Assembly: GCA_017416855.1 (NCBI GenBank)
Contig: JAFQAZ010000003.1
Span: 1-64,000, forward strand
DNA length: 64,000 bases
DNA from: Clostridia bacterium
GTDB lineage: Bacteria > Bacillota > Clostridia > UBA1381 > UBA9506
Reading direction: 5' to 3'
The translations under genes were made by a program, and so were the position numbers. Positions 6,482 to 29,535 of the stretch are shown one piece after another (position 1 is the stretch's first letter; each line of letters begins with the position of its first letter). Below the pieces are notes generated by a model. That model saw only the letters and a list, made by a program, of their open reading frames with translations. It did no database searches and was not told the DNA's origin.

Positions 6482-6514
6482 AAAAAGGCTGTAAAATCTT
6501 TTTACAGCCTTTTA
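6482..6514 (-). terminator. Terminator of the 11-gene operon
   Basis: A perfect 14-bp stem (aaaaggctgtaaaa, 3-nt loop, ttttacagcctttt) begins 5 nt past the stop of the peptidase-acetyltransferase gene and ends in T5. Confidence 0.92.
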
Positions 6515-6518
6515 GTTC

Positions 6519-9203
6519 TTATCGATACTTTTTACAGAAAGGACACTCCGGTCGATCACACAATGTCACATTGGGGTCTTCGCGGAACAGTTCCATACCG
6601 ATTTCATACAGCTGCTTTAAATCAATACAGCTCACGGTTCCCAAACCAAGCTTTGCCTTCCGGATTTCCAGGCCTTTGGCTATGGCTCTTTGATAGAACT
6701 TCGCCTGTATGCCCACCGGCTCATAAAAATCACGGCAGCCGGGCACATGGTTGTGAATGACCTCGGTGTGTTGTTTGCCGCTAGCATCCTCCACCTTCAC
6801 AATGGCGTTTTCCAAAAAGGCAGATTGTGCCAGATGCTCTACATGATGCACAAAGGTGTTGCTGCCCAGACCGCAGCCGAAGAACACAACCTTGCCGCCC
6901 ATTGCCAGAGCTTTTGCCATGGGGCTGGTTTCCGATGCTGGCGGATCTAACAAACCTTGTGCCATTACACTTTCTTCTGCTTTTTTGCCTAATCCTGCCC
7001 AGGAGTGACTACAATGAGCGCTTCGTTTAGCATTAAACTTTTTCAAAAGCACTTTCGGCATTGTGCCAACCCATATGTTATCAATATTGTCAGGACTAAA
7101 CGGCCGGTAATTTCTTGCCTTGTTCACCGCTCCCTCAAAAGCAACATAAGGCCGGGTGAAAGTAGGCATCAGCATGCCGCCATTTTCTCCTACTGTTTCA
7201 TAAAACGCCTCAATCACCGTTTCGGCACCGCCTTTAATGTGTCCGCAGCCGGACTGGCTGGAGTGCACCAACAAAATGTCATTTTTTTCAATACCCAAAG
7301 CCTGCAAGGTGTCTTTAATCTGCTCTTTGGTGATATCATTTTCATTGATAACCGAAAGATAACCGCTATCGGCCAGAAACATCACCGCATCCACTTGAGT
7401 TTTTACATTTTTTTCTGTTATGGGCTGACCGGATTCCCACAAAGCCCCTTGGATGAGTTCTGCTAAATTTCGCTTTCCATCCATTGCTGAAAGAATCATA
7501 CCTAACGGACCATACATCACATCATTGGGTAATATGCGGCGCTTTTCTTTCGGCAATTTAATCAAATCGTGAGGAAATCCAATGATAGAACGCGTCCCCA
7601 CAATGCCTTTTGCATAGGTAAGCCAACGAAGTTCCTGTATTTCATTGGGAAGTTCCGGCACCTGCAGGCTCGTAATTGCTTCATCAATTTCAGGTACATC
7701 GGCAATCTTTTTAAAGCTTTTAAGCTGTGCCTGTTCCCCCGCCATAAAGTATGCCATACGGTCTTGCTGATTAGGATACTGTTCTCCTTTTGTCATTTCA
7801 AAAGCTAACCGTTCTTTAGCAAGCTCTGCTGAGGCTTTTACCATCTCCGGCAGATTCTCTTCGTTCAAAAGCACCATCTGTGCCGCCCAAAGGGTGGTAA
7901 AACTCTGTACACGGTGGAGTTTTTCTTCACAAAGCACATCATTACTCTGAATGGAATTGTGCCAATAATAGCATTCACAATGCTCAACATAAATGGATGG
8001 CACCCCAATGGTGGAATCCCCCACCATACAGTCATCGCCATAATTATACACCCAGGAAACAAATTTTTCGTTATGGGGAAATTCCTTTTCAAAGGCCTTA
8101 GCCGCCAAACGATAAATGTAGTTCCCAAAAAAGGGCGTAGCATAAGGCACTAAGTCTGTTTTAAAATCGGTATCTATGGTTTGCACCGGTGGAGTATCAA
8201 TATTAAGGCCACCAATCACCTGATTGTGCAGCGCTCCGCCAAAATGGGCTGCCATAGCCGTGTAGCCATAACTTTCCATAGCAAAAACCAGACGGATGGA
8301 ATATGTAAGAGGCGGTAACTTGCCTTCTTGAATCAGTTTTAACAGTTGTTTTACGGTACCGATGGTCATGGTTACACTCACGGCATTATCTGCAATAAAG
8401 GGTTCATATAAGTGAGCCATCAGCCAAAGCTCTTGCTTCTTTTTCCCGGGAATTAACGCGGTTACGCCATAAATTTCTCCTTCATACCGCCGACCGTCGG
8501 ACTCAACAAGCACCTCCACCGCACCGCTTTCGGCCGCCTGACGAAGTTTTCGACCCACACGAGGTGAAATGGAAAAACCAATGAAATCGCGGTCATCTGC
8601 CTGCACATGCCAATGGCTTGTGTCGTCTGTTCCGGCATTCACCCACTGCACCGCATCCGGTGTATCGGCTGCCGCACGGATGTAATCAGACACAAATCCC
8701 ATAGCCCCCAAATCCAAAAGAGGCGAAATGGCATACGGTCGGGGCGGCGTATCCGCATTTAACAGCACCATAGCTCCCCGGCAATCCTCACCGGCATAGA
8801 CCTGCGCTTCCGTTACCAGCTTCACACGGACGCCACCTGCCGGTGTGGCGGTGGAATGTTTGATTAAGTGAAAGGGATGTTTTTCATAATCGGCCACCAC
8901 CGGCTCAGCAAAAGGAACAGAAGATTTCGTTACCGTGAGCCGCCCTACGCTTGCCTCCCAAGCCATGGGAGTTCGCATATCCATATAGGTGGTTTTGCCG
9001 TCTGCCGGAAAGGTTATGATTTCGGCATCAAAGCCCTCTTCTTTTAAAAGGTTATAGGTATAGTCTGCGGCCGCTTTATACTCTTTAAAGGTTTGCCCGA
9101 ATTCAATGGTGTTCAGTTCTTTGCCGTGCTTTGCAATCCATTCTGTATCCTGTGTCTCATATAAAAGCCGCAACATTTTCTGCATATTTTCAATAACTGA
9201 CAT
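6519..9203 (-). CDS. Fusion protein: M28/DUF4910-like metallopeptidase plus AAC(3)-family N-acetyltransferase
   Basis: The 894-residue protein has two enzymatic halves and no signal peptide. Residues about 30-450 resemble M28-type zinc aminopeptidases: MAHLYEPFIADNA gives the H...D pair, FAMES one of the usual two Glu, then LNIDTP and a distal YYWHNS His. About 515-620 looks like a winged-helix linker. Residues about 625-894 are a clear AAC(3)-type acetyl-CoA N-acetyltransferase: DILLVHSSQSG, GGMLMPTFT, SNTFVHHVEH and a Cys-rich tail. AAC(3) enzymes acetylate an amino group on an amino sugar. I chose the ATG at 9203 because GGAG lies 8 nt upstream, 4 nt after the previous stop. It is the last gene of the operon. 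A tandem hydrolase-acetyltransferase could act on a peptide- or amide-linked amino sugar. That role is inference, and antibiotic resistance is unlikely from context. Confidence 0.8.
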   Translation of the reverse strand: MSVIENMQKMLRLLYETQDTEWIAKHGKELNTIEFGQTFKEYKAAADYTYNLLKEEGFDAEIITFPADGKTTYMDMRTPMAWEASVGRLTVTKSSVPFAEPVVADYEKHPFHLIKHSTATPAGGVRVKLVTEAQVYAGEDCRGAMVLLNADTPPRPYAISPLLDLGAMGFVSDYIRAAADTPDAVQWVNAGTDDTSHWHVQADDRDFIGFSISPRVGRKLRQAAESGAVEVLVESDGRRYEGEIYGVTALIPGKKKQELWLMAHLYEPFIADNAVSVTMTIGTVKQLLKLIQEGKLPPLTYSIRLVFAMESYGYTAMAAHFGGALHNQVIGGLNIDTPPVQTIDTDFKTDLVPYATPFFGNYIYRLAAKAFEKEFPHNEKFVSWVYNYGDDCMVGDSTIGVPSIYVEHCECYYWHNSIQSNDVLCEEKLHRVQSFTTLWAAQMVLLNEENLPEMVKASAELAKERLAFEMTKGEQYPNQQDRMAYFMAGEQAQLKSFKKIADVPEIDEAITSLQVPELPNEIQELRWLTYAKGIVGTRSIIGFPHDLIKLPKEKRRILPNDVMYGPLGMILSAMDGKRNLAELIQGALWESGQPITEKNVKTQVDAVMFLADSGYLSVINENDITKEQIKDTLQALGIEKNDILLVHSSQSGCGHIKGGAETVIEAFYETVGENGGMLMPTFTRPYVAFEGAVNKARNYRPFSPDNIDNIWVGTMPKVLLKKFNAKRSAHCSHSWAGLGKKAEESVMAQGLLDPPASETSPMAKALAMGGKVVFFGCGLGSNTFVHHVEHLAQSAFLENAIVKVEDASGKQHTEVIHNHVPGCRDFYEPVGIQAKFYQRAIAKGLEIRKAKLGLGTVSCIDLKQLYEIGMELFREDPNVTLCDRPECPFCKKYR

Positions 9204-9207
9204 AATG

Positions 9208-10581
9208 TTACTCCTTTTCTCTGCCAAAAAATCTGTTTTCAAAGTCGGTAATGCGCTGTTCCAACGCCTCTAAAAGAGGTTTAACACTTTTATCACCCTG
9301 AATGTAATCCCGGAGAACAGGGCCAACAGATGCACACAGCTCATTGTGGAGAGGAAAATAATAATCCGTTAAGAAACGGGCATAACGCACCAGGCGATAG
9401 GGGCCGTATAACCGAATATTTTTTTCATCCGGCTGATGTTCCACCGCCACGCTGTAGCCTTCTAACACCGCTTTTTTAATGTTGCTGTTTTCGGTGAACA
9501 CATAGGTGGAGGCTTTAAATTCGTTGCCATCCCAAAGAACGGTGTGACTGTCCGTTGAACCAACCACCGGCAGATTCACGCCCTGACGCTGGGCTTCATA
9601 ATAAAGGGCTGTTTGCAGATTGTTTTCTTCTGCATTGCCGCCACCCATAATTTCAAAGGCATCGCAAAGACCGTCTTTTAAAATAGCCATAGACATTTCA
9701 TGGCCCACGTGCCAGCGTACTTTTTCAATGTTCCAGTAAGGATGAGGGAAAATCACCAAACCGCCATAGCGTTTGGCTTCTAAATAGACCCAAACCCTGT
9801 ATAAATATTCCTGTTCATCCACATTTTCAGGAACATCCACCGCTTCTTTCAAGGCTTCTACTTCTTTTTTTATGCGCTCCGGATTTTCTCTGAACACTTC
9901 GTTCACACTTTGGGAACTGCCAATGTTCACTATGTGCAAATGACCGCCAAAACCGTTGTGAATTTCTTCACCCACCGGCAGGAGAAAATCAGTTTTAAAA
10001 TCAAACTTTTCCCGGGCATATTGACCAATATCATAAAAATAATGGTCGGTAATGACCGCAAAGTCATAACCCATCTGGCGGTAGGTAGCCGCCGTCAGTG
10101 CCGGGCTTTCATCCCCGTCGGTCATATTGGTGTGAATATGCAAATCGCCTCGCAACGCTCTGCGGTTATATAAATCCTCTTTTAATGAATATACCGACAC
10201 AATGGACCATTGCTCGGGGCGCTCCATGACCCAGCCAAAACTCTTGGGATTCATTTGGTGAGTGGTCAGTTCATGCTTATCATGCTCAAAGGTACGGATG
10301 CGGATATTCCACTGCTGTTCCCCTTTGAAAAAGTGGGTCAGTTCAATCACACCGTTTTTCGGCTGAACCTTTCGTGTTTCTCTGAACTGCTCCATACCCT
10401 TTAATGAGAGAGCCTCATCCATGGGAAGTTCATTTTTATCAGCGGGGATAATCTGCACCTCATAGGTCACATCGTCATAAAAAAGCATCCAACCATCTAA
10501 GGCACGGATGCTTATTTTGCTTTCACAATCTGCCGGTACAACAGACGGGGTAACAGAAAAGCGCTTTAATTCAGATTTCAT
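9208..10581 (-). CDS. PHP-domain phosphoesterase
   Basis: The 457-residue cytoplasmic protein has all four PHP metal-binding motifs: GDLHIHTNMTDG near residue 144, ITDH, a central FPHPYW and STDSHT near residue 343. PHP enzymes are trinuclear metal phosphoesterases, and the stand-alone kind often act on nucleotides or sugar phosphates. About 140 residues in front of the motifs form a probable beta-sandwich, rich in W and F, that I cannot assign. It is preceded by GAGG and lies 17 nt after the upstream gene and 4 nt before the next. Sitting beside two phosphatase-fold enzymes and a HAD phosphatase, it suggests that phosphorylated intermediates are handled by this operon. The substrate is unknown. 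Confidence 0.85.
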   Translation of the reverse strand: MKSELKRFSVTPSVVPADCESKISIRALDGWMLFYDDVTYEVQIIPADKNELPMDEALSLKGMEQFRETRKVQPKNGVIELTHFFKGEQQWNIRIRTFEHDKHELTTHQMNPKSFGWVMERPEQWSIVSVYSLKEDLYNRRALRGDLHIHTNMTDGDESPALTAATYRQMGYDFAVITDHYFYDIGQYAREKFDFKTDFLLPVGEEIHNGFGGHLHIVNIGSSQSVNEVFRENPERIKKEVEALKEAVDVPENVDEQEYLYRVWVYLEAKRYGGLVIFPHPYWNIEKVRWHVGHEMSMAILKDGLCDAFEIMGGGNAEENNLQTALYYEAQRQGVNLPVVGSTDSHTVLWDGNEFKASTYVFTENSNIKKAVLEGYSVAVEHQPDEKNIRLYGPYRLVRYARFLTDYYFPLHNELCASVGPVLRDYIQGDKSVKPLLEALEQRITDFENRFFGREKE

Positions 10582-10598: not shown

Positions 10599-11396
10599 TT
10601 ACTCTAATGTAAATTCACAGCAAATGGGATAATGGTCAGAAAGGAAAATACCGTTTTTGTTATCCTCCCATGTATAAACCTTTTGCAGTTTTTGAGCCGT
10701 TTCAGGACCGGTAAATACATAGTCAATCTTCCAGCCACGGGAATATTCTGTATGGCCGGTACCGCCAAAATCGTGGAAAGAAACCGGGATGTCTTTTGTT
10801 AAATCCACTAAGGGATAGTCCTCATAGTTATTGCAAAAAGCAATGGTTTTGCTATCCGGCTGAGCATTAAAATCTCCCAGTATAAAGGAGGGATATGCCA
10901 TCACTTCATCGTCTTTTTTCATTTTTTCCAAAATCTGACGAATGCCTAAAATTCTGGCCTCATCGCTTTCGTGGTCTAAATGCACATCATATAAGCGAAT
11001 GGGGGTTTTCATGTTTTTATGTTTCACCGTTGCATAAATGCAGGTACGGGGATATTCACTCTGAATTTCATACCGGGTGCCGGGCACAAAAGGTGTGGGA
11101 GACAGCCAAAACTGCTCCAAACCAAACAATTCCATTGAATCCTTGCGATAGGCAAACCCTAACCCTTCGTTGGAAAAATCAGCCAGACGCCCGTGACCTA
11201 CCATATGATAATCCACCAAATATTTTTCCAAAAAAGGACGGATTTGCTCCCCCACTTCCTGAAAACAAATCACGTGGGGTTTTTCTTCGTTAATTTTATC
11301 TAAAATGAGGCCGGCACGGTGAATGAAGGCATTCATGCCGTCATAAGTATCATATAGCGTGCGTAGATTAAAGGTGACGATTTTTACGTTCTCCAT
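10599..11396 (-). CDS. Endonuclease/exonuclease/phosphatase family hydrolase (first of two)
   Basis: The 265-residue protein has the full EEP catalytic set: VTFNLRT at the start, CFQEVGEQ with the metal-binding Glu, YDVHLDHES, LGDFNAQPDS and the terminal SDHYPI. The family hydrolyses phosphodiester or phosphomonoester bonds in nucleic acids, inositol phosphates or lipids. There is no signal peptide, so it should act in the cytoplasm. It lies 17 nt after its paralogue (11414-12154) and 17 nt before the PHP gene. In carbohydrate operons of Clostridia such genes are usually annotated only by family, and I cannot name the substrate. Confidence 0.85.
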   Translation of the reverse strand: MENVKIVTFNLRTLYDTYDGMNAFIHRAGLILDKINEEKPHVICFQEVGEQIRPFLEKYLVDYHMVGHGRLADFSNEGLGFAYRKDSMELFGLEQFWLSPTPFVPGTRYEIQSEYPRTCIYATVKHKNMKTPIRLYDVHLDHESDEARILGIRQILEKMKKDDEVMAYPSFILGDFNAQPDSKTIAFCNNYEDYPLVDLTKDIPVSFHDFGGTGHTEYSRGWKIDYVFTGPETAQKLQKVYTWEDNKNGIFLSDHYPICCEFTLE

Positions 11397-11413
11397 CCTT
11401 TTTTCCTCTTTTC

Positions 11414-12154
11414 TTACAAAATCAGCTCTGCCACATAGGGCTTGTGGTCGCTGGGGTTTGCCTCAATGGGCATAGCCTGTTCCACCTTCATAGACTCATC
11501 CGCAAAAATGTAATCAATTTTCATAAAGGGGTCATTGGAAGAAAAGGTATACTGGGTTTTATCAATTTTTTCAGGTGCTGTGTCTTGTATAAGGGCAGAA
11601 AGCTCACGGATTAACTTTTCATCCGGCTCCATATTAAAATCACCCATTAAAATGCAGGGATAGGGGGATACCGCAATGAGCTCTTTCACTTTTTCGACCA
11701 CCATTTTCTGTTCAGAAGGTGCCAAACCAAAGTGCGAAACCAAAACTGTCACCTTTTGCTCCCCTAAATCAATTGTGGCTTTGGCAATGCTTCGCGCCTC
11801 TACTCGTTCATCCTCACTGGGGTCACCAGCAGGAATACAGAACGTTTCTGCCTCTACAATGGGGTATTTCGACAAAATGGCGTTGCCATAGGGGCTTTCC
11901 CTATCTAAAACGGCCTGAGCAAAATAAAAATAGTCATAGCCGGCTTCTTTGGCAATCCGCTCCGGCTGGTTATCAAAAATAAAGCCTGCCTCGTGAACTT
12001 CATTCATGCCCACAATATGGGCATTTTGTTCTTTAATCACCGCTGCCACTAAAGAGGGGTTCACCAGGGTGGGGTCAAGCCAATCCTTCCCCGCCATCAG
12101 CTCCAGATTATTCCGACCGGACATAATGTTATACGTCATAACTTTTAATTTCAT
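11414..12154 (-). CDS. Endonuclease/exonuclease/phosphatase family hydrolase (second of two)
   Basis: The 246-residue protein shows the EEP motifs MTYNIMSGR, MNEVHEAG, VSHFGL, LMGDFNMEPDE and SDHKPY. It is clearly related to the adjacent 265-residue EEP protein but well diverged (different spacing and loops), so this is an old duplication or two separate recruitments. It is cytoplasmic by lack of a signal peptide. The start is set by GAGG six bases upstream of the ATG. The upstream HAD gene ends 25 nt away, so they share a transcript. Confidence 0.85.
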   Translation of the reverse strand: MKLKVMTYNIMSGRNNLELMAGKDWLDPTLVNPSLVAAVIKEQNAHIVGMNEVHEAGFIFDNQPERIAKEAGYDYFYFAQAVLDRESPYGNAILSKYPIVEAETFCIPAGDPSEDERVEARSIAKATIDLGEQKVTVLVSHFGLAPSEQKMVVEKVKELIAVSPYPCILMGDFNMEPDEKLIRELSALIQDTAPEKIDKTQYTFSSNDPFMKIDYIFADESMKVEQAMPIEANPSDHKPYVAELIL

Positions 12155-13595: not shown

Positions 13596-14531
13596 TTACT
13601 CGGCATATATTTTTTCAATGGCAGCAATAACCTCTCTGCCATATTCCGGCATAACGATGTTACTTTCTTCGCCCTTTAAAAATTTCACAAATTCCACCAG
13701 CTGGTCATATAACAAATCAGTAGTACCGCCGTAATTTACCCACTGGTTATTCTCAAATACACAGAAATCAGAGCCGCCGGCTGATTTTGCCATACCATTT
13801 GTGAAATAAAATACCGTTTCATACGCACGGGTATCGGGGCAACCGCAATACGTAACGGTGGCTGTTATATCGCCGGTAAACTTTAACAGAATCTGTGCAT
13901 TGATCTCCACATTATCATCAGAAAGCGGGTTAGAAAGGTAAGAGGTTGCCTCTACAACCTTTTCTCCAGACACATACATAATTTTATCAATGGTGTGGGC
14001 TCCGTAGTTCATCACAATGCCGCCGCCGGATAACTTCTTATCTAAAAACCACTTGGGACGGCCGGGCAGATAGTTTACGTTACGTACTTCGGTAATCATT
14101 TTCAGTTCGCCCAGCTTGCCGCTTTCTTTAATCTTTTTAATTTCTTCATAAGCTGAATAGTAGCGCTGTACGTGACCAACTGCCAGCTTGGCACCGCTTT
14201 TTTCAGCGGCCGCTATCATGCTGTCACACTCCTCCACACTCATAGCCATGGGTTTTTCTACCAGCACGTTCACGCCTTTTTCCAGGAAATAAACCGTTAC
14301 ATCGTGATGGAGAAAATGGGGCAGATTTAAAATCACAGCATCCAGCTCCACCTGCTCACACATTTCTTTGTAATCAGTAAAACTTTTTGCTTTGTGTGCT
14401 GCTGCAATTTCTTCGGCACGTTCAAGCACCGTATCACAAACGGCTACCAATTCACAATCTTCATTTCTCAAAATGGCAGCACTATGGTCTCTACCGATAA
14501 TTCCGGCACCAACAATACCTAATTTAAACAT
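13596..14531 (-). CDS. Gfo/Idh/MocA-family NAD(P)-dependent oxidoreductase
   Basis: The 311-residue cytoplasmic enzyme starts with a Rossmann motif, GIVGAGIIGRDHSA, followed by the acidic CD turn and the EKPMA motif with the catalytic Lys near residue 95. GHVQRYYSA and the GGGIVMNYGAHTIDKI segment (metal-free family His) complete the signature. These enzymes oxidise or reduce cyclic polyols and sugars such as inositol, glucose or amino-sugar derivatives. A strong AGGAGG precedes the start, and the DUF4091 gene ends 12 nt upstream. It probably converts a monosaccharide freed by the neighbouring GH2 or DUF4091 enzymes. Confidence 0.92.
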   Translation of the reverse strand: MFKLGIVGAGIIGRDHSAAILRNEDCELVAVCDTVLERAEEIAAAHKAKSFTDYKEMCEQVELDAVILNLPHFLHHDVTVYFLEKGVNVLVEKPMAMSVEECDSMIAAAEKSGAKLAVGHVQRYYSAYEEIKKIKESGKLGELKMITEVRNVNYLPGRPKWFLDKKLSGGGIVMNYGAHTIDKIMYVSGEKVVEATSYLSNPLSDDNVEINAQILLKFTGDITATVTYCGCPDTRAYETVFYFTNGMAKSAGGSDFCVFENNQWVNYGGTTDLLYDQLVEFVKFLKGEESNIVMPEYGREVIAAIEKIYAE

Positions 14532-18680: not shown

Positions 18681-19469
18681 TTAATAAAATGCACGCCAGA
18701 GTGCTTCTTCTACCGTATCAGCTGTAACCGTAAAGCTTCTGCCGTCAATCATCTGCATATAGGGCTTACAGGAAGGGCGGAACATTCTTGTCCGTTCAAT
18801 CATTTCCATTTTGCAGGTGATGGGACCTTCGATTACATAAGGCTTAATGGAATCTGCTTTTTCCACCGCCTCTTTTGCTTTTTCATAAATGAGCTTGTGG
18901 GCCTTGCCCGGGGGCAACAAAATACCACCGGTGCAGGTCAGACCTTTTTTTACCTCAGCCGTTACCACATCGGGCATAATGGCTTTAGCCTCGGCACAAA
19001 CCTTATCGTCGCCACTAACCATAATCACCGGCACGCCCTGCTCTCCGGCAATGGCGGCATCTACAGCGGTTTCACCCACTTTTTCGCCGTTAATGTACAT
19101 ATTCTGCACATCCAGGCCAAAGGTGTGCTCTAAAATGGCGCCTTCCGTGCCAGCCATGGCGTGATAGCCTAATAAAACCATCGCATCCATATCCGTTAAA
19201 TCGCCATAGCGACGGTCGCCCACATAACCGCAAATGTACCCATCTGCAAGCGGAATAGCCTGCTCCCAATCCAGCATCCAGCCACCACCGTGACAATCAT
19301 GAACGATGACTTTTTCTGCGCCGCCTGCCTTTAACCCTTCTACGCAGGCATTAATATCTGCCATTAAGCACCGGCGGCCTTCGGGATTCTGCCAGCGGCC
19401 CTCTCTTGTCTGGTCATTACTGTAAATCCCGCTGATACCCTCTATATCAACCATAACATAAACATTCAT
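18681..19469 (-). CDS. M55-family D-aminopeptidase (DppA-like), copy 1
   Basis: The 262-residue protein keeps the zinc site and catalytic residues of Bacillus subtilis DppA at nearly the same numbers: D8 and E10 in VDIEGISG, H60 in HDCHGGG, H103 in GYHAM, H115 in LEHTF and E133 in VGE. DppA is a cytoplasmic decameric zinc enzyme that releases N-terminal D-amino acids, best with D-Ala-D-Ala. Its role in a glycan operon could be to process cross-link or stem peptides, or another D-amino-acid amide. It lies 15 nt downstream of a close paralogue and 20 nt upstream of the GH2 gene. Confidence 0.92.
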   Translation of the reverse strand: MNVYVMVDIEGISGIYSNDQTREGRWQNPEGRRCLMADINACVEGLKAGGAEKVIVHDCHGGGWMLDWEQAIPLADGYICGYVGDRRYGDLTDMDAMVLLGYHAMAGTEGAILEHTFGLDVQNMYINGEKVGETAVDAAIAGEQGVPVIMVSGDDKVCAEAKAIMPDVVTAEVKKGLTCTGGILLPPGKAHKLIYEKAKEAVEKADSIKPYVIEGPITCKMEMIERTRMFRPSCKPYMQMIDGRSFTVTADTVEEALWRAFY

Positions 19470-19484
19470 TTTCTGCCCCTCCTA

Positions 19485-20276
19485 TCACCAGAATGCTCTC
19501 CAGAGCGCCTGTTCAACCGTGTCACCGGTTACGGTGTAGGTTCTGCCGTCTAAAATCTCCATATAAGGCTTAACGGAGGGACGGAACAAACGGGTTGCCT
19601 CTGTCATTTCCATTTTGCAGGTAATGGGACCGGGAATAACATAAGGCTTGATGGAATCTGCCTTTTTCACAGCCTCTATGGTCTTTTCATAAATCAGCTG
19701 ATGAGCCTTTTCCGGCGGTAATAAAGTTCCGCCCAATCTTGACAATCCCTTTTTCACTTCAGCTGTGACCACATCAGGCATAATGGCTTTAGCCTCGGCA
19801 CAAACCTTATCATCGCCACTAACCATAATCACCGGCACGCCCTGCTCACCGGCAATGGCGGCATCCACAGCGGTTTCGCCCACTTTAACGCCGTTAATAT
19901 ACATATTCTGCACATCTTTGGAGGAATAAGTATGCTCTAAAATAGCCTCCTGAGTGCCGGCCATAGCGTGATAGCCTAAAAGAATCACCGCATCGAATTC
20001 TTCTAAATTAGCATAGCGGCGGTCGCCTACATAACCGCAAACATACCCATCTGCCAAATCGGAAGCCATTTCCCAGTCAAACATCCAGCCACCACCGTGG
20101 CAATCGTGGACATAGACTTTATCCACGCCGGCATCCTTTAAGCCTTTCACGCAGGCATTGATATCGCCCATTAAATGACGGCGACCTTCCGGCACCTGCC
20201 ATTGTTCTTCTGCCACCTGGTCACGGTTATAAATACCGCTGATGCCCTCTATATCAACCATAACATAAACATTCAT
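19485..20276 (-). CDS. M55-family D-aminopeptidase (DppA-like), copy 2, first gene of the operon
   Basis: The 263-residue protein is very close to the next gene in both sequence and length, with the same D8, E10, H60, H103 and H115 and the VGE Glu shifted by one after a short insertion (SSKD). The long identical stretches point to a fairly recent tandem duplication. I start at 20276, where GGAGG lies 8 nt upstream; the in-frame extension to 20330 would cross the promoter. As the first gene behind the promoter at 20302-20330 it heads the whole transcript down to 6519. Confidence 0.92.
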   Translation of the reverse strand: MNVYVMVDIEGISGIYNRDQVAEEQWQVPEGRRHLMGDINACVKGLKDAGVDKVYVHDCHGGGWMFDWEMASDLADGYVCGYVGDRRYANLEEFDAVILLGYHAMAGTQEAILEHTYSSKDVQNMYINGVKVGETAVDAAIAGEQGVPVIMVSGDDKVCAEAKAIMPDVVTAEVKKGLSRLGGTLLPPEKAHQLIYEKTIEAVKKADSIKPYVIPGPITCKMEMTEATRLFRPSVKPYMEILDGRTYTVTGDTVEQALWRAFW

Positions 20277-20301
20277 TTGGATAGCCTCCATTCTTTTCTT
20301 C

Positions 20302-20330
20302 ATTATATCAACAAAACCGCCTGTTCGCAA
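20302..20330 (-). promoter_or_regulatory. Promoter of the 11-gene operon
   Basis: TTGCGA (20325-20330) and TATAAT (20302-20307) on the minus strand with a 17-nt spacer. The -35 and spacer lie inside the loop and right arm of the preceding terminator hairpin, so read-through and initiation may affect each other. Confidence 0.75.
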
Positions 20331-21026: not shown

Positions 21027-24000
21027 TTAATAATTTTTAACGTAAATACGTTTTAAGAATGTAGCCGCCTGTGCTCTTGTTGCTGTTGCGGAAGGAGCAA
21101 AGGTATCTTCGCTCATGCCCGCAATGAGACGCATAGCAACCGCTTTTTCCACATAAGGTCTTGCCCATTCGGAGGTGGTATCAGCATCTGTGAACTTAGA
21201 CAAGTCTGCACCGGTGAGTGCTTCGTGGAATTTCTCGTAATACACAACTGCCAATGCACAAATTTCTTCACGGGTAATGTTCTGGTCAGGCTTGAAGCCG
21301 CCTTCTAACATTGCCGGCGGAATGAGATCTTGTGCCAAAGCACCTTCAATGGCCGGTGTAAACCAGGAATTGGCACCAATATCGGCAATCTTGCCGGTAT
21401 AGTTACCATTTGCAACACCATACACTCGGTTGAGCATGGTGAGGAACGCCGCACGGCTTAAGGTGGATTCAGGAGAATATACTCTGTCGGCCACACCGTC
21501 TATCATACCGATTTTCGCCATTTCCTCAATGTAGCTCTGTGCCCAGCTGCCCTCTAAGTCATCAAACATGGTGCCGCTGAAGGGAATGTAGAACTCATTA
21601 ATGGAGGTCCAGTTGTTCACCGTGTTCTTATAACCGGTTACCTTAATGTAGCGGGCATACACTTCATCAAAGGTATAGCTTTCCATCTTATCGGATAAGA
21701 TGCTTTCGCCTTCCCAAACTGTAGTCCAGCTCTTGTTATCGTTAGAAACCTGAATGTCAAAGGTTTCTATACGCTTATTCTGGTTGTTCCAGTAAAGCTG
21801 TACTTCGCTGACGGGAATGGGTTTGCCCATATCGTAGCCTACCCACTGAGGGCCTTCATTGGACCAACCGGAGGATGTGCTACCGTCCATCATGTTGGGG
21901 ATTTCTACGCGGTTTGCACTGTAGATATAACCCTTAGGTGCATAAGCACTCCAGTTATCTAAGTATTCCTGTGCATCGCTGGAGAAGGTGACGGCATAGC
22001 CGGTGGTCATTTTGCCGTTGGAGGCTTTTACCACAGCGGTATCTCCCACATTTTCTGCCTGTTCAATTTCAATTTTAATGCCGGCGCCGGCGGTAGCTGT
22101 TAAGGTACCTACGCGGTCTTCTTTTAAGGTGTAAACGGTTTTATCTTCTGCAAAGCCCTGTAATTTCACGCCGTCTAAGTAAATGCCGGTGAGCTTCACA
22201 GGTTCTTCCAAGAGTGTATCCCACTGATTTAAGGGGATAATTTCATCCATTGTGAAGGTATAAGATTTTTCACCGTAATAAGGTGTAAACAACAATGAGA
22301 AGGTCGCACTGCCGGAAACATTGGCTGTTACTGTCAACTTGCGGTAACCGGTGTTTTCTTCGTTCTGCACGTCCGGCGAGGTGGGCAGAGCTGATGCCTC
22401 CATTTCGGACAAGGTTGCATTACAGTTGGACTTTAAGACAACCTTCATCTGCTTGTCGCCCTTTGAGTTAGTTAAAATGGCTTCCTTGCCGCCCTTTAAG
22501 ATTTCAATCTTAGCGGCGGTGTGTACGAAGGAATATACTTCACAAGGCTCAATCACAGAAACTTCATCCTGTAATAAGAAAGCATTTCGGCCGTCAATCA
22601 AGGCAAAACCACGTCTTGCAGAGGTTGCCGTTTTAGAATAAGCGTCTGTCTGGTCAACAATGGCATAGGATGCCCAGGGCTGCGATGCTGTCTTTTCAAT
22701 GGGAGAAACGTTGTAGTGCTTCTGGTCAACAAAGTCATCACCATCCGCCTGTTTATCCACTTCATAAGCAGAACCCTGATCCACACCGGGGCCGATAACC
22801 AAGGTGTTCATACCTTCGGCACGGTTTCTGTAATACTGGTAACGCTGGGAACCAAACATACCGGGCAGGTTATAGTTTGCCGTGTTGATAATGGATGCCC
22901 AACGGAAGCCCTGAGATTCCAGTACGAAAGTACCGGTATCTAAACGTGCGTGGGTTGCCACATTTGCATTGTTACCTTTATAGGCAACAAAGAAACCGGT
23001 GTTACCCTTTTCCCAGCTGGCACGCATAGAACCAACCTGCGCTTCACCTTCAGTGTAGGCAACGTCTAAGGGCATATTGTGACGCCATTCTTTATATTCT
23101 TCTTTATGTTCGGGACGGTAAAGCAAAATACTGTAAACACTCTTTACCTTAGCTTCATAAATATGACCGGCATCTTCATTACGGTCAAACAGGTGGCCGA
23201 TTAAGAAGTCACCTGTTACGGTACAGAAACGAGGAGAACCATCATAATAGTTAAAGGAGGTGCCGCTGTTGCCGTGCATATTCACAATAGCACGAGAGCT
23301 GTTTTCCATACCGAATTCATCTAAGATGGAGAACCGGAAGTAGAGATCTTTATCCCCTAAAGTGTTATACAGCGCTTCTTCATACGCAAAGTAGTTATTC
23401 ATGCAGTAGTTCCAGTAGTCCAAACCTTCAAAGGGGCTGCCATCCGGCGCATAGTGGCGGAACAGAATACGAAGAGCAATATGAATACGGTTTAAATACT
23501 GGTTAGAAACCATTTCATAGCCCGGTGTATCGGCAATGGCCAAAGCACACATACCAACACCGGAGTTAATGATGGCATTCCAGTTGGTATCCTGGGTTGC
23601 CGCACCATTGTTACGGAGCAGGTTGCCCCAATAGAACTTTAAGGCATATAAAATCATGGCGTTTCTTGCCATCATACGCTGTTCCTCTGTCCAATGGTTA
23701 TACATCAGGTCGTAAGAAACGGCAGCTGAACGAGAAATGTCACCGATAGAAAGCTCGGATTTACCCCCCGGGTTCCAGGTGCTGGTGCCTTTGGTTAATA
23801 CCAGCCAGTTTTTCCAGCAGGCATCGGCATATTTTTGGTCACCGGTTAAATTGTAAGCCATCGCCAGATTCAGAACATAACCACCGGCCGTGTCCGGGCT
23901 GGTGGTTGTGGCTTCTGCCGCACCGTCACAGGTTGCTAAAAAGTCCGGAATAATGGCACTTAAATATTCATCGGTTTTGTAGTTCTCTTTAATCCAGTCA

Positions 24001-25208
24001 ATCTCGTCCTGGGTTGCCAGAAGGCGAGGATGCTGGTTGTTGGGGAACTTCGTCTTAACGTGTTCCGCAAAATCATAGAAGTCTTCTTCCATGGGCGGAA
24101 TGTTTTCAATATACTGAGGCTCCTGCCACAGAACTTCATAGTCAATGTTCTTTAAGGTAATTTTTTCAATATAGGTCTCTGAGTTATTCAGATAGTCCCC
24201 GGTTTCATACCACCAGAGCTGAATGGCATTAATCTCTCCCCATCCCTTGGGCACACCGCCGGCAGAGAAGGAACCTAACTGCAGCTGCACATCACGCCAT
24301 TCATCATCCCAGTCAAGCACAATATCCATGTAGTAATAGTCATTACTTTCATTGGTATAGTCATCAGAACGGATGGCAACACGGATACTGTCACCGGTAG
24401 CGGTTTTATTATACATTTTAAACTCAATGGTGTTAAAAGGCGTAAAGTCTGTGGTTGCCACGCTCATATCATTAAAGTTTAAGCCGGAAGCACCGCTTTT
24501 ACCTTCCACCGCCTTAGTATCGGTAAAATGCATAGCATAGGTGGTTTTACCCGGCGCCTTCTTTAAAGTGCTGTTTATTGAATTATATGTTGCCATAGAT
24601 GCCGCCAGACCGGATTGGCTGGTTAAATCAAAGAGCACCATGTCGCCGCTTTGGGTGTCGGTTACAGTTGCTTCTGTTGTTACAAAGAAACTGTCGAGAT
24701 ACAGTTCAACGGTAGACTTAATGGAAGAATCCCTGTAGCCGGGCCACAGTTCTACCCTATCTACCTTGTCAAAGCCAACAGGCTTGCCGTTTGCCGTAAA
24801 GGATTCCAGCGGCAGGCTCACAAGCTGCCAGCCCTTAGCCGTTACGGATACTGTGGTTGCATAATAGTCAAGACCGGGCGTTTCTGCATTGTCGGAGATA
24901 ACACCCAGACCGAAGGAAGAGTTTTCTCTTAAGGTAGAGAATACCCATAATTCCAGAAAGTTACCGGTTGACCAGTCGCCTCGCGCTGGAAGGGAAACCG
25001 TTCTTTCAAGATCAGCACCGCCCCAACGCAGAGAAAATTTTGAATTTTTGCTATACGCACTGCTCACTGCCAGACCCGATAGCTCCGTAACGGAAGTGTT
25101 GTCCATATCAACAACCTTCATGCTATCTTCTGCCGCGCTGGCAAAAGGCACACAAAAGCTTGTTAACATAAGAATTGTCAGCAGCATTGTTAAACATCTT
25201 TTAAACAT
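21027..25208 (-). CDS. SLH-anchored heparinase II/III-like polysaccharide lyase (paralogue A)
   Basis: A 1,393-residue secreted protein. A signal peptide (1-25, cut after FASA) is followed by two jelly-roll modules (about 30-185 and 195-360, with LELWVFS and GWQLVSLPL patterns like carbohydrate-binding domains). The heparinase II/III region follows (about 385-1000), with NNQHPRLLATQDE, NAIINSGVGMCALAIAD, YWNYCMNNYFAYEEA and the C-terminal sheet motif ATHARLDTGTFVLES. Next come a small beta domain with a YLDGVKL motif, an F5/8-type discoidin domain (about 1075-1205, WVGYDMGKPIPVSEVQLYWN) and three SLH repeats (about 1215-1393) that would bind secondary cell-wall polymer. Lyases of this fold cleave uronic-acid-containing chains such as heparin, heparan or alginate. 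It is the last gene of its cluster, and the exact substrate is unknown. Confidence 0.88.
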   Translation of the reverse strand: MFKRCLTMLLTILMLTSFCVPFASAAEDSMKVVDMDNTSVTELSGLAVSSAYSKNSKFSLRWGGADLERTVSLPARGDWSTGNFLELWVFSTLRENSSFGLGVISDNAETPGLDYYATTVSVTAKGWQLVSLPLESFTANGKPVGFDKVDRVELWPGYRDSSIKSTVELYLDSFFVTTEATVTDTQSGDMVLFDLTSQSGLAASMATYNSINSTLKKAPGKTTYAMHFTDTKAVEGKSGASGLNFNDMSVATTDFTPFNTIEFKMYNKTATGDSIRVAIRSDDYTNESNDYYYMDIVLDWDDEWRDVQLQLGSFSAGGVPKGWGEINAIQLWWYETGDYLNNSETYIEKITLKNIDYEVLWQEPQYIENIPPMEEDFYDFAEHVKTKFPNNQHPRLLATQDEIDWIKENYKTDEYLSAIIPDFLATCDGAAEATTTSPDTAGGYVLNLAMAYNLTGDQKYADACWKNWLVLTKGTSTWNPGGKSELSIGDISRSAAVSYDLMYNHWTEEQRMMARNAMILYALKFYWGNLLRNNGAATQDTNWNAIINSGVGMCALAIADTPGYEMVSNQYLNRIHIALRILFRHYAPDGSPFEGLDYWNYCMNNYFAYEEALYNTLGDKDLYFRFSILDEFGMENSSRAIVNMHGNSGTSFNYYDGSPRFCTVTGDFLIGHLFDRNEDAGHIYEAKVKSVYSILLYRPEHKEEYKEWRHNMPLDVAYTEGEAQVGSMRASWEKGNTGFFVAYKGNNANVATHARLDTGTFVLESQGFRWASIINTANYNLPGMFGSQRYQYYRNRAEGMNTLVIGPGVDQGSAYEVDKQADGDDFVDQKHYNVSPIEKTASQPWASYAIVDQTDAYSKTATSARRGFALIDGRNAFLLQDEVSVIEPCEVYSFVHTAAKIEILKGGKEAILTNSKGDKQMKVVLKSNCNATLSEMEASALPTSPDVQNEENTGYRKLTVTANVSGSATFSLLFTPYYGEKSYTFTMDEIIPLNQWDTLLEEPVKLTGIYLDGVKLQGFAEDKTVYTLKEDRVGTLTATAGAGIKIEIEQAENVGDTAVVKASNGKMTTGYAVTFSSDAQEYLDNWSAYAPKGYIYSANRVEIPNMMDGSTSSGWSNEGPQWVGYDMGKPIPVSEVQLYWNNQNKRIETFDIQVSNDNKSWTTVWEGESILSDKMESYTFDEVYARYIKVTGYKNTVNNWTSINEFYIPFSGTMFDDLEGSWAQSYIEEMAKIGMIDGVADRVYSPESTLSRAAFLTMLNRVYGVANGNYTGKIADIGANSWFTPAIEGALAQDLIPPAMLEGGFKPDQNITREEICALAVVYYEKFHEALTGADLSKFTDADTTSEWARPYVEKAVAMRLIAGMSEDTFAPSATATRAQAATFLKRIYVKNY

Positions 25209-25231
25209 AATAACGCTCCTTTCTCCAGTTA

Positions 25232-25260
25232 TGATAGCGGCACTACACCGCTATCATAGC
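25232..25260 (-). other. Perfect intercistronic hairpin
   Basis: An 11-bp perfect inverted repeat (tatgatagcgg / ccgctatcata, 7-nt loop) lies between the stop of paralogue B and the RBS of paralogue A. No T-run follows. It may be an RNA-stability or processing element, or a partial terminator. Confidence 0.6.
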
Positions 25261-25276
25261 ATTAATCAACAATCCC

Positions 25277-28200
25277 TTAAAATGTTTTAACAAAAATACG
25301 TTTTAAGAAGGTTGCCGCCTGTGCACGAGTTGCATTGTTCGCTGGTGCAAAGGTATCTTCACTCATACCTGCTAAAAGACGAATGGCAATTGCTTTTTCA
25401 ACATAAGGTCTTGCCCAGTCGGAGGTACTATCCGCATCTTTAAACTTATCAAGGCTTGCACCTTTGACTTCACCATGGAACTTTTCGTAGTAAAGAATCG
25501 CCAATGCACAAATCTCTTCACGGGTAATGTTCCGGTTGGGTTTAAAGCCACCCTGCAGCATTGCTGCAGGAATGAGATTTTGTGCCAAAGCACCTTCAAT
25601 TGCCGGTGTGAACCATTCATTTTCTTTAATATCGGCCACAGTTCCGGTATAAGTTCCGTCTGAAACTTTATATGCTCGGTTAAGCATTGTGAGGAACGCT
25701 GCACGACTCAAAGAATCATCGGGAGAATATACTCTGTCTGCAATGCCTTCCACAATACCGACTTTTGCCATATCTTCAATATAACCCTGTGCCCAGCAAC
25801 CATCTAAATCGTCAAAGTTTGTGCCTTCAAACACAACATAGAATTCATTAATAGATGTCCAGTTGTTGGCCGTATTCTTATAACCTTCAACTTTAACATA
25901 ACGGGCATAAACTTCATCGAAGGTATAACTTTCAATCTTTTCAGACAAAATGCTTTCGCCTTCCCAAACGGTGGTCCAGGTTTTATTATCGTTAGAAACC
26001 TGAATGTCAAAGGTTTCGGTACGCTTATGCTGGTTATTCCAGAAAAGCTGAACTTCACTCACCGGCTTGGGTTTACCCAAGTCATAACCAACCCATTGAG
26101 GCCCTTCATTGGCCCAGCTGGTGTTTACGTCACCGTCTAACATCAAGGGAATCTGAGCTAAGTTGGTACTGTAAATATAGTCTTTCGGCGGATATGTTTT
26201 GTAATTATCCAGATATTCCTGAGCTGCCGACGCATATGTTACCGCATAGGTTGTGGATGCCTTTCCGTCGGAAGCCTTAATCACCGCGGTACCGCCAATC
26301 TTGTTGGCCTGCAGGACTTCAATTTTGACGCCCGGAGCGGCTGTGGCGGTAATGGTGCCCAGTCTATCCTCTTTTAAGGTATAAACGGATTTGTTTTCTT
26401 TAAAATCCTGTAGTTTCACACCGTCTAAATAAATACCGGTGAGTTTAATGGGGTCTGCTAAGAATGTATCCCACTCGTTAAGAGGAACAATTTCTTCCAT
26501 CTTAAAGGTATATTCATTAGCACCGAAATACGGCGTGAATAACAGAGAAATTTTTGCATTTTTCTTAACATTTGCAACAACAGCCAATTTCCGATAGTGG
26601 GGATTTGCTGTGTTGTTTACATTAGGAGATGTAGGCAATTTTTCTGCCGGCATATCTGCTAATTTTGCATCACAGTCAGACAGCAGGGTTACCTTCATTC
26701 TTTTGTTCTGCATAGTGAGGATGGCTTCTTTTTCACCGGGCATAATGATAATATCTGCCGCTGTGTGTGCAAAGGAATATACATCACAGGGCTGTTTGAC
26801 TGTAATTTCATCCTGCAACAGGAAGGCATTTCGGCCATCGATTAATGCAAATCCGCGTTTAACGGAGCTTGCTGTTGCACTGTAGGTATCCGTTAAATTT
26901 AAAATCGCGTAAGACGCCCAGTCTCTCGCCCCTGTTTTTTCAATTGGCGCAATGCTATAGGTCTTCTGGTCAACAAAGTCATCACCGTCTGCCTGGTTAT
27001 CACCACCCGCTTTATTGGTGCCTTGTGAAACACCGGGACCAATAACCAACGTATTCATACCTTCGGCACGGTTTCTGTAATACTGATAACGCTGCGAGCC
27101 GAACATACCGGGCAGGTTATAGTTTTCGGTATCAATAACCGACACCCAGCGCTGACCCTGAGATTCCAGTACATAACAACCTGCATCTAAACGGCCGTGA
27201 GTAGCCGCATTGGCTTTGTTACCTTTATAACCGATATAAAAACCCTGATTGCCGGCATCCCAGCTGGTTCTGATAGAACCAACCTGTGCTTCACCTTCGG
27301 TGTAGGCACGGTCAATCTGCATATTGTCACGCCATGTTTTATAGGCTTCTAAATGCTCGGGGACATATTGCAAAATACCATAGGTAGATACTTCTCTGGT
27401 TTCAAAAGCACGACCGGCATCCTGAGGACGGTCAAAGAGATCGGCTACAAAGAAGTCACCGGGTACGGTACAGTTACGGGGTCGACCGTCAAAATAGTTA
27501 AAGGACTGACCACTGGGGCCATGCATATACTGCACCGCTTCAATGCTGTTTTCCATGCCGTATTCATCCAGCATAGAGAACCGGAAGAAGAGGTCTTTAT
27601 CCCCTAAGGTGTTATAGAGCGCTTCTTCATAAGCAAAGTAGTTATTCATACAGTAGTTCCAGTAGTCAAGACCTTCAAAGGGGCTACCATCCGGATCATA
27701 GTGCTGGAACAACAGACGAAGTGCATTGGGAATACGGTTTAAATACTGGTTGGCTACACCTTCATAACCCGGGTCATCAGCAATGGCTAAAGCACACATA
27801 CCCACACCGGAGTTAATAATAGCATTCCAGTTGGTTTCCTGATTAGCCGCACCGTTGGTACGCAAAAGTGTACCCCAGCGATGCTCTAATGCATAAATCA
27901 TCATGGCATTTCTTGCCATCATGCGCTGTTCTTCTGTCCAGAAATTATACATCAGGTCGTAAGAAACAGCGGCAGTTCTGGAGGTATCACCAATTTGCAG
28001 CATAGATTTTCCACCCGGATCCCAGCTACTGGTACCTTTGGTCAGAACCTCCCATTTTTCCCAACAGGCATCGGCATATTTTTCATCACCGGTCAGGTGA
28101 TACGCTAATGCCAAAGAGGCTGCATTGCCGGAGGTTGCATCCATATCATTGGGATCGGCTACTTTTTCGGCATAACCGTCACAAAGGTTTAAAAAATTAG

Positions 28201-29461
28201 GAATAAGTTCGCTTAAATACTCATCGGTTTTATAGTTATCCCGAATCCAATTCAGTTCCTCCTGAGTTGCCAGAAGTCGAGGATGCTGATTGTTGGGGAA
28301 TCTTTCTTTAATATGAGCTGCAAAGTCGAACCAACCTTCTTCCATAGGTGGTACGTTTGCAATATACCGGGGGCTCTGCCACCGTTTGTTATAGTCTACA
28401 TTGCGCAGAATGAAGTGTTCAATATAAACTTCAGAATCGTGTTTTTTATCATCAGACTCATACCACCAAATTTGGACAGCATTAATCTGATCCCAACCTA
28501 AGGGTACGCCACCGGCAGATAAAGAATCAAGCTTAAACTGAACGGTTTTCCATTCTTCTTCCCAGTCTAAAACAATCTCACCCACATAATAGTCGTTGGC
28601 TTCTGTGTTCACATCATCAGAACGCATTGCAATACGCAGCGCATCGTTGGTGGCACGTTTATTATAAATCGAAACTTCCAGAGTGTTATAAGGGGTAAAG
28701 TCGGAGGTGGCAACGCTCATATCATCGAAATATACACCACCGGCTGTACCTGTTCCTTCTGTTCTTTTAATATCCGTTAAATGCAGAGCATTGGTGTTTT
28801 TACCCGGTGCTTTTTTCAAATTACAGTTTAATGTGTTGAAAGATGCCCGGGAAGCCGCAACGCCTGACTGACTGGTCAAATCAAACAGCACCATGTCACC
28901 GCTTTTCACCTCTGTTACAGAGGGATACAGCGAAACAAACATACTGTCAATGTAAAGGTCAACCGTAGACTTCATTTTGGCACCTTTATAACCGGGCCAT
29001 AATTCCACTCTGTCTACATTGTCAAATCCGTTCGGGATGCCGTTTTTCTCAAAGGAATCCAGTGGCAGACTAATCAGATGCCAACCCTGACCCATAACGG
29101 AAATGGTAGTACCATAATAATCTAATCCAGCGGTTTCTGCATTATCAGAAATAACGCCCAAACCGAAGGAAGAATTTTCTTTAATAGAAGAATAAATCCA
29201 AAATTCTAAATAAGAACCGGCGGACCAATCTCTCTCAGCCGGCAGGGTAATGTTTTTGGTTAAATCCGCTCCGCCCCAACGGAGAGTGAACTTAGAGCTT
29301 TTGGAATAGGCACCGCTAACCGCAAGACCGGAATGTTCTGCTATAGAAGAATCATCCATATCCACAACTTTTATGTTGATTGCATCCGCGCTCACAAAGG
29401 GTATGCAAAGACCTAAAACAAGGATAACTGTCAATAACACTGTAAATAATCTTTTGAACAT
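25277..29461 (-). CDS. SLH-anchored heparinase II/III-like polysaccharide lyase (paralogue B)
   Basis: The 1,394-residue protein has the same architecture as paralogue A: signal peptide, two jelly-roll modules, heparinase II/III region (NNQHPRLLATQEE, NAIINSGVGMCALAIAD, YWNYCMNNYFAYEEA, ATHGRLDAGCYVLES), a beta domain, a discoidin domain and three SLH repeats. The two are similar from end to end, so the pair comes from duplication of a whole gene. The ATG at 29461 has GGAG eight bases upstream; the extension to 29488 is rejected. A difference from A is Cys in AGCYVLES where A has AGTFVLES-type residues. It should sit on the cell surface and act on acidic glycans, possibly with a shifted preference. 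Confidence 0.88.
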   Translation of the reverse strand: MFKRLFTVLLTVILVLGLCIPFVSADAINIKVVDMDDSSIAEHSGLAVSGAYSKSSKFTLRWGGADLTKNITLPAERDWSAGSYLEFWIYSSIKENSSFGLGVISDNAETAGLDYYGTTISVMGQGWHLISLPLDSFEKNGIPNGFDNVDRVELWPGYKGAKMKSTVDLYIDSMFVSLYPSVTEVKSGDMVLFDLTSQSGVAASRASFNTLNCNLKKAPGKNTNALHLTDIKRTEGTGTAGGVYFDDMSVATSDFTPYNTLEVSIYNKRATNDALRIAMRSDDVNTEANDYYVGEIVLDWEEEWKTVQFKLDSLSAGGVPLGWDQINAVQIWWYESDDKKHDSEVYIEHFILRNVDYNKRWQSPRYIANVPPMEEGWFDFAAHIKERFPNNQHPRLLATQEELNWIRDNYKTDEYLSELIPNFLNLCDGYAEKVADPNDMDATSGNAASLALAYHLTGDEKYADACWEKWEVLTKGTSSWDPGGKSMLQIGDTSRTAAVSYDLMYNFWTEEQRMMARNAMMIYALEHRWGTLLRTNGAANQETNWNAIINSGVGMCALAIADDPGYEGVANQYLNRIPNALRLLFQHYDPDGSPFEGLDYWNYCMNNYFAYEEALYNTLGDKDLFFRFSMLDEYGMENSIEAVQYMHGPSGQSFNYFDGRPRNCTVPGDFFVADLFDRPQDAGRAFETREVSTYGILQYVPEHLEAYKTWRDNMQIDRAYTEGEAQVGSIRTSWDAGNQGFYIGYKGNKANAATHGRLDAGCYVLESQGQRWVSVIDTENYNLPGMFGSQRYQYYRNRAEGMNTLVIGPGVSQGTNKAGGDNQADGDDFVDQKTYSIAPIEKTGARDWASYAILNLTDTYSATASSVKRGFALIDGRNAFLLQDEITVKQPCDVYSFAHTAADIIIMPGEKEAILTMQNKRMKVTLLSDCDAKLADMPAEKLPTSPNVNNTANPHYRKLAVVANVKKNAKISLLFTPYFGANEYTFKMEEIVPLNEWDTFLADPIKLTGIYLDGVKLQDFKENKSVYTLKEDRLGTITATAAPGVKIEVLQANKIGGTAVIKASDGKASTTYAVTYASAAQEYLDNYKTYPPKDYIYSTNLAQIPLMLDGDVNTSWANEGPQWVGYDLGKPKPVSEVQLFWNNQHKRTETFDIQVSNDNKTWTTVWEGESILSEKIESYTFDEVYARYVKVEGYKNTANNWTSINEFYVVFEGTNFDDLDGCWAQGYIEDMAKVGIVEGIADRVYSPDDSLSRAAFLTMLNRAYKVSDGTYTGTVADIKENEWFTPAIEGALAQNLIPAAMLQGGFKPNRNITREEICALAILYYEKFHGEVKGASLDKFKDADSTSDWARPYVEKAIAIRLLAGMSEDTFAPANNATRAQAATFLKRIFVKTF

Positions 29462-29480
29462 AATTACGCTCCTTTTACAT

Positions 29481-29513
29481 GTTACCATAACGGCAGAACG
29501 CCGTTATGGTAAC
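29481..29513 (-). other. Perfect intercistronic hairpin
   Basis: A 14-bp perfect inverted repeat (gttaccataacggc / gccgttatggtaac, 5-nt loop) lies just before the RBS of paralogue B. Its sequence is unrelated to the hairpin before paralogue A although the position is the same. Confidence 0.65.
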
Positions 29514-29535
29514 TTAAATAGCGATTTATAAACAT

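Follow-up and report, generated by a model that had tools for sequence, protein, structure and literature searches.

A DUF4910-like peptidase unit joined to an AAC(3)-type acetyltransferase in a Clostridia carbohydrate locus: a candidate two-site enzyme

The window, i.e. the whole stretch of 64,000 nucleotides that was analyzed (start of contig JAFQAZ010000003.1), belongs to a gut-type bacterium of the class Clostridia. Its minus strand contains a gene (6519..9203) that reads as one open frame of 894 codons plus a stop, from an ATG at 9203 to position 6519, and relatives have an equally open frame. A ribosome-binding site read from the sequence, AGGAG (9211..9215, minus strand), lies 7 nucleotides before the ATG. 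It extends into the final codons of the upstream gene (9208..10581, minus strand; stop at 9208, 4 nucleotides from the ATG), which encodes a PHP-type metallohydrolase resembling CehA/McbA. Because of this overlap, the two genes are probably co-transcribed. On the other side, a 14-pair hairpin (6483..6513), likely acting as a terminator in both directions, separates the gene from that of HydG. A promoter-like site is located beyond the hairpin (6468-6441), although such sites are barely more common here than in shuffled sequences. Together, the hairpin and this site indicate that the gene most likely closes its operon. The original prediction, that one polypeptide joins a peptidase of the M28/DUF4910 type to an N-acetyltransferase of the AAC(3) type, is borne out: a single frame of 894 residues encodes both, preceded by a ribosome-binding site and closed by a terminator.

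The gene is the last of a run encoding M55 D-aminopeptidases, GH2-like and GH123 proteins, a Gfo/Idh/MocA dehydrogenase, a HAD protein, two EEP proteins, and the PHP metallohydrolase. Further along the strand are genes for SLH surface proteins, a DUF4962-like protein, amidohydrolases, a DegT aminotransferase, (ABC) transporters, and GH116. A second copy of the fusion in the same genome closes the run UxaC, RraA-like, SDR, UxuA, GH39, and fusion, which is a set for glucuronate breakdown plus a glycosidase. This carbohydrate context fits the amino-sugar type of substrate that had been proposed from the sequence, or an N-substituted sugar. In other genomes, sugar-type clusters that include cyclase and xylose-isomerase-like genes contain relatives of the acetyltransferase half, without DUF4910 partners. 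The surroundings of stand-alone DUF4910 relatives are mixed, ranging from peptide transport to creatininase and GH94. A stand-alone DUF4910 gene beside a stand-alone AAC(3) gene was sought among the relatives' loci examined and was not found.

Several other features of these loci were recorded. The two M55 D-aminopeptidase genes of the window are tandem paralogues (18681-20330) in a glycan-type operon. Two tandem genes of the endonuclease/exonuclease/phosphatase (EEP) family (10599-12154) adjoin the PHP hydrolase and HAD phosphatase genes, which brings the possible phosphoesterases of the sugar cluster to four. Three very large, similar secreted proteins are encoded in tandem at 21027-32589. 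F5/8-C and SLH domains occur in two of them, and the third matches DUF4962 weakly; Pfam recognizes no catalytic domain, and the proteins may be polysaccharide lyases. The same region contains the Gfo/Idh/MocA dehydrogenase (13596-14531) and DegT aminotransferase (42643-43890) genes, and a similar pair lies near C4, a peptidase-only paralogue (L045:14665-16956). Such pairs are used elsewhere for amino sugar synthesis. A neutral-ceramidase-like gene directly precedes both C4 and the fusion of genome G397 (L045:6342-9580 and L047:9975-10484), the latter gene being only related to the former by BLAST (29% identity over 80 residues).

Residues 1-620 of the protein form a complete unit resembling CA_C2195 of Clostridium acetobutylicum (PDB 3k9t; DUF4910, DUF2172, and HTH_47), with which it shares a three-part layout of peptidase-like domain, PA-like insert, and winged helix. 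The M28/DUF4910 domain comprises an N-terminal part (residues 1-79, 8967..9203; approximate boundary) and an M28-like core (residues 246-450, 7854..8468) containing H264, D272, E310, D336, D390/D391, and H415. The PA-like insert lies between them (residues about 80-245, 8469..8966), where the profile match to 3iib and 3k9t extends across the stretch; it is the counterpart of the DUF2172/PA insert of these two structures (PMC4000134). A helical connector (residues 451-524, 7632..7853), delimited from the secondary structure of the model, leads to the winged helix. All of these segments are on the minus strand. The unit is longer than CA_C2195 (about 620 versus 434 residues), and the fusion has an additional C-terminal AAC(3) domain.

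Residues 1-620 alone matched no Pfam model, DUF4910 included. Distant stand-alone relatives of about 620-670 residues matched Peptidase_M28 (down to 3e-16) and DUF4910 (down to 2e-23) in Pfam, the DUF4910 cut-off being passed by L007, L021, and L052. A profile built from eleven peptidase-unit sequences, the unit and its relatives, and searched against the PDB detected 3k9t (5e-16) and the M28 peptidases 3iib (2e-10) and 2ek8 (5e-9). In the AlphaFold model of the full protein (mean pLDDT of 62.8, with residues 267-272 and 377-423 under 50), the peptidase part superimposed on the M28 aminopeptidase 6hc6 with a Z score of 21.6 (363 residues, 3.5 Å). Profile and model (Z about 21) agree on an M28-type fold for this half, as had been predicted. 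The fold with its PA-type insert is shared with the M28 aminopeptidases BSAP, 3iib, and Aneurinibacillus 2ek8, and the active-site His, the bridging Asp, one Glu, the Asp, and the His of these enzymes align in the fusion, which differs from them by the added winged helix and AAC(3) domain.

The stretch between the two halves had been described as a winged-helix-like linker. The first part of this description stands: residues 525-624 (7332..7631, minus strand) match the fold of a permuted winged helix of the HTH_47 kind. Modelled alone (pLDDT of 84.4), they superimposed on residues 348-434 of 3k9t with a Z score of 7.0 (rmsd of 2.2 Å over 74 residues), a Z score under 8 being weak by itself. 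No match was obtained with Pfam HTH_47, or with Foldseek at an E value of 0.001 or better. The match lies at the equivalent C-terminal place in 3k9t, the closest solved homologue. The winged helix thus belongs to the CA_C2195-like peptidase unit and is not a linker, and the protein consists of a whole unit of this type with an appended acetyltransferase. The winged helix of CA_C2195 has been argued to mediate trimer contacts, and that protein not to be a conventional peptidase (PMC4000134). The peptidase motifs quoted in the prediction were all found in this unit, namely MAHLYEPFIADNA (residues 262-274), FAMES (307-311), and YYWHNS (412-417).

M28 peptidases have five metal ligands (His, Asp, Glu, Asp, and His), and the second Glu of the family is normally one of them. 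Four ligands align in the fusion (H264, D272, D336, and H415), S311 takes the place of the second Glu in the profile alignment, and Y266, on which the original prediction was silent, occupies the position of the catalytic Asp of the HxD motif. E310 aligns with the first (catalytic) Glu of 3iib in this profile alignment. The register could be off by one, so that the aligned Glu might be either member of the pair; in the 3k9t study the Glu was put one position later (PMC4000134). Conservation was assessed in 22 aligned peptidase-unit sequences, comprising six fusions and 16 stand-alone relatives. H264 and E310 were invariant (22/22), and D272, D336, and H415 were kept in all sequences except the G397 fusion (21/22); the site formed by these five residues is intact in every stand-alone relative (16/16) and in five of the six fusions. 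The single Glu of the FAMES segment, from which a possibly different metal chemistry had been suggested, was confirmed but is common to all 22 sequences. It is a trait of the whole DUF4910-like family, not one special to the fusion.

In CA_C2195, too, the x-E-x motif contains just one Glu, the Asp of the HxD motif is absent, and the context is sugar-related. The fusion differs from it in keeping D336 and H264, the canonical M28 His, which aligns with a Tyr of 3k9t, and in having E267 where 3k9t has the zinc ligand His189. Stand-alone relatives such as L021 have His at this position, and E267 is conserved across the fusion group and its nearest stand-alone relatives; it might bind metal. Hydrolysis by the DUF4910 half, for which the conserved residues constitute the evidence, is doubtful because two M28 residues are missing and because peptidase activity of the 3k9t protein was itself doubted by the authors of the structure (PMC4000134). 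An additional DUF4910-like relative (L082:907-3483) is extended at its N-terminus by a region resembling an ArsR-type regulator.

The C-terminal half (residues 625-894; 6522..7331, minus strand) was identified as an Antibiotic_NAT/AAC(3) domain by Pfam, PDB search, and fold, in agreement with the prediction. Residues 645-873 matched Antibiotic_NAT (PF02522) at 4e-36 (125 bits for a cut-off of 25), phmmer against the PDB returned FrbF and several AAC(3) enzymes (9e-19 and weaker), and the corresponding part of the AlphaFold model superimposed on AAC(3)-IVa (6mn3; Z score of 21.6, 243 residues, 3.3 Å). The motifs DILLVHSSQSG (residues 642-652), MPTFT (679-683), and SNTFVHHVEH (781-790) were present as quoted in the prediction. 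The AAC(3) family is characterized by the motif TxPhiHPhiAE, with a catalytic His/Glu dyad (PMC8956665). The motif is recognizable as T783, H786, and E789, with Val replacing Ala and His in the second hydrophobic position, and these three residues are intact in all five fusions that reach the motif. The fusion has the fold (Z about 21) and the catalytic Thr/His/Glu motif of the Antibiotic_NAT/AAC(3) enzymes AAC(3)-IVa, AAC(3)-IIIb, BA2930, and FrbF. It differs from them by a low identity to solved members (20-27%), the peptidase-like unit, a Cys-rich tail, and its setting in a sugar operon. The tail, C882-x4-C887-x2-C890 (6522..6557, minus strand), is present in all fusions that reach the end of the domain and in some stand-alone AAC(3) relatives. 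The pattern C-x4-5-C-x2-C is conserved in L008, L010, L011, L012, L014, and L015, with a shorter version in L014, and is perhaps a metal-binding knuckle.

The genome count called for by the original prediction gave six fusions in five genomes, with carbohydrate genes beside two of the copies. The two copies of this genome are 40% identical. The others are in a same-genus genome (G402; 91% identity, same locus as metagenome-assembled genome SIG442), a genome of the same family (G397), a genome of another family of the order (G466), and an assembly named for Clostridiaceae isolate AS10tlH2TH_150 (G850), in which the contig ends inside the AAC(3) half. The fusion is present in 4/95 genomes of the source order and in 1/51 genomes of the order of G850. 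Outside G000, no fusion was recognized among 391 sampled genomes of the class or among 398 sampled genomes of the phylum, a few of the listed matches having been read in part. The peptidase-unit profile matched in 35 of these 398 phylum genomes. A scan of viral contigs found no relative, and PADLOC returned no match for a role in anti-phage defence.

All AAC(3) halves that belong to fusions group in a single clade (100/100 support). For the peptidase halves, the tree shows a tight cluster that also includes two peptidase-only proteins, with compatible branching and no resolution of the internal order, and close relatives of the peptidase half without AAC(3) were found in G289 and G436. The trees of the two halves are compatible with one fusion event, and a single fusion followed by loss of the AAC(3) half fits them; a second, separate fusion event is a possible alternative. 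The G397 fusion (L047:7731-9959) has an intact AAC(3) half, 55% identical to that of the window copy, and a peptidase half lacking about 170 residues and most of the metal-site residues, namely D272 (HLYKQTAPEE), D336, and the H415 stretch.

Comparison of the window copy with that of G402 gave dN/dS values of 0.066 for residues 1-450, 0.26 for residues 451-620, and 0.086 for residues 621-894, the value for the M28-like core (residues 246-450) being 0.047 between the two species. Both halves are under strong purifying selection. In the same comparison, dS rose from 0.2 in the first part of the gene to 0.92 in the last. Nucleotide identity to the same-genus genome (L046) fell from about 93-99% to 77-85% over positions 6501-7750. 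The dS rise and the sharp drop in identity suggest recombination within the gene, in the AAC(3) half.

We tentatively favor a cytosolic two-site enzyme of carbohydrate metabolism, in which the DUF4910 half would hydrolyze an amide and the AAC(3) half would carry out acetyl-CoA-dependent acetylation (probability of about 0.42). This reading draws on the match of both folds, the conservation of both sites, the purifying selection, the single AAC(3) clade, and the position in sugar operons; it is weakened by the missing second Glu and HxD Asp, the occurrence of the halves apart from each other, the decay of the peptidase site in G397, and the finding that no stand-alone AAC(3) relative had a DUF4910 gene beside it in the loci examined. 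The protein has no apparent secretion signal, a further difference from the M28 aminopeptidases; this, together with the requirement for acetyl-CoA, makes a cytosolic location most likely. The M28/DUF4910 half would contain at least one metal ion, with H264, D272, D336, and H415 as likely ligands and E310 as the likely general base, and would hydrolyze an amide of a sugar that is N-acylated, aminoacylated, or of the uronamide type. In the AAC(3) half, acetyl-CoA would serve to acetylate an amine; most likely this would be either the amine that the first step sets free or that of a related amino sugar of the pathway. The winged helix would probably serve in oligomerization or substrate recognition, as proposed for 3k9t. 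We infer both activities, the substrate, and the coupling between the sites; the acetyltransferase chemistry is a safer assignment than the hydrolysis.

Among the competing explanations, the one that survives best, although we consider it unlikely, is that the acetyltransferase alone is active and that the DUF4910/winged-helix unit has no catalytic role but provides a platform for substrate binding and determines the oligomeric state, as in pseudo-peptidase relatives of M28. The G397 fusion, which has kept its AAC(3) half, the family-wide absence of the M28 catalytic Asp and of one metal-ligand Glu, and the trimer contacts and unconventional nature argued for CA_C2195 (PMC4000134) all point in this direction. 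However, the other five fusions and every one of the 16 stand-alone relatives have retained the remaining site residues, a dN/dS of 0.047 at residues 246-450 suits a working metal site better than a scaffold, and the G397 assembly, which is 67% complete, could carry a decaying copy.

It is improbable that both domains are active in one pathway but chemically uncoupled, an amidase and an acetyltransferase fused for joint expression, in which case the acetyltransferase may serve to dispose of the released amino acid or of an unrelated amine. Both halves evolve and occur separately, and AAC(3)-type relatives are found in sugar clusters that lack DUF4910 partners, as an uncoupled arrangement would allow; yet the persistence of the fusion at two loci of this genome and across several families, at low dN/dS, suggests that the physical linkage is of some benefit. 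At the other extreme of coupling, and rather improbable, is N-acyl exchange within a single chain, the DUF4910 site removing an amide-linked group and the AAC(3) site re-acetylating the same nitrogen of an amino sugar. Placing both steps on one nitrogen is a guess. It agrees with the original prediction and with the 2014 structural paper, in which the reaction suggested for DUF4910 was acyl transfer to an amino sugar or its deacylation (PMC4000134). If true, such an exchange would let ordinary N-acetylhexosamine enzymes finish breakdown. Its logic would parallel, in the bacterial cytosol, that of re-acetylation during the degradation of heparan in lysosomes.

An aminoglycoside resistance enzyme, which the Antibiotic_NAT match and the AAC(3) fold might suggest, is very improbable, since the NCBIfam models of AAC(3) resistance enzymes gave 98 bits or less for cut-offs of 270 and more, the gene lies in a carbohydrate operon, and two diverged copies are kept. 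An artefact joining two genes by frameshift or misassembly is scarcely credible: metagenome-assembled genomes supply most copies, but the frame is open in other assemblies and uninterrupted in five genomes, one with two diverged copies, the junction is conserved, and both halves are under purifying selection.

A search of the open-access literature returned no paper on such a fusion or on AAC(3) enzymes in glycan loci; the architecture is new and the component families are known. Returning to the two-site enzyme, the function of DUF4910 has been open since the 2014 structure, and its natural, conserved association in one chain with a domain whose chemistry is known suggests a reaction that can be tested, amide hydrolysis plus acetylation on an amino sugar, for which the operons provide a likely substrate class. 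Finding AAC(3)-type enzymes associated with sugar metabolism instead of resistance is relevant to the annotation of resistance genes.
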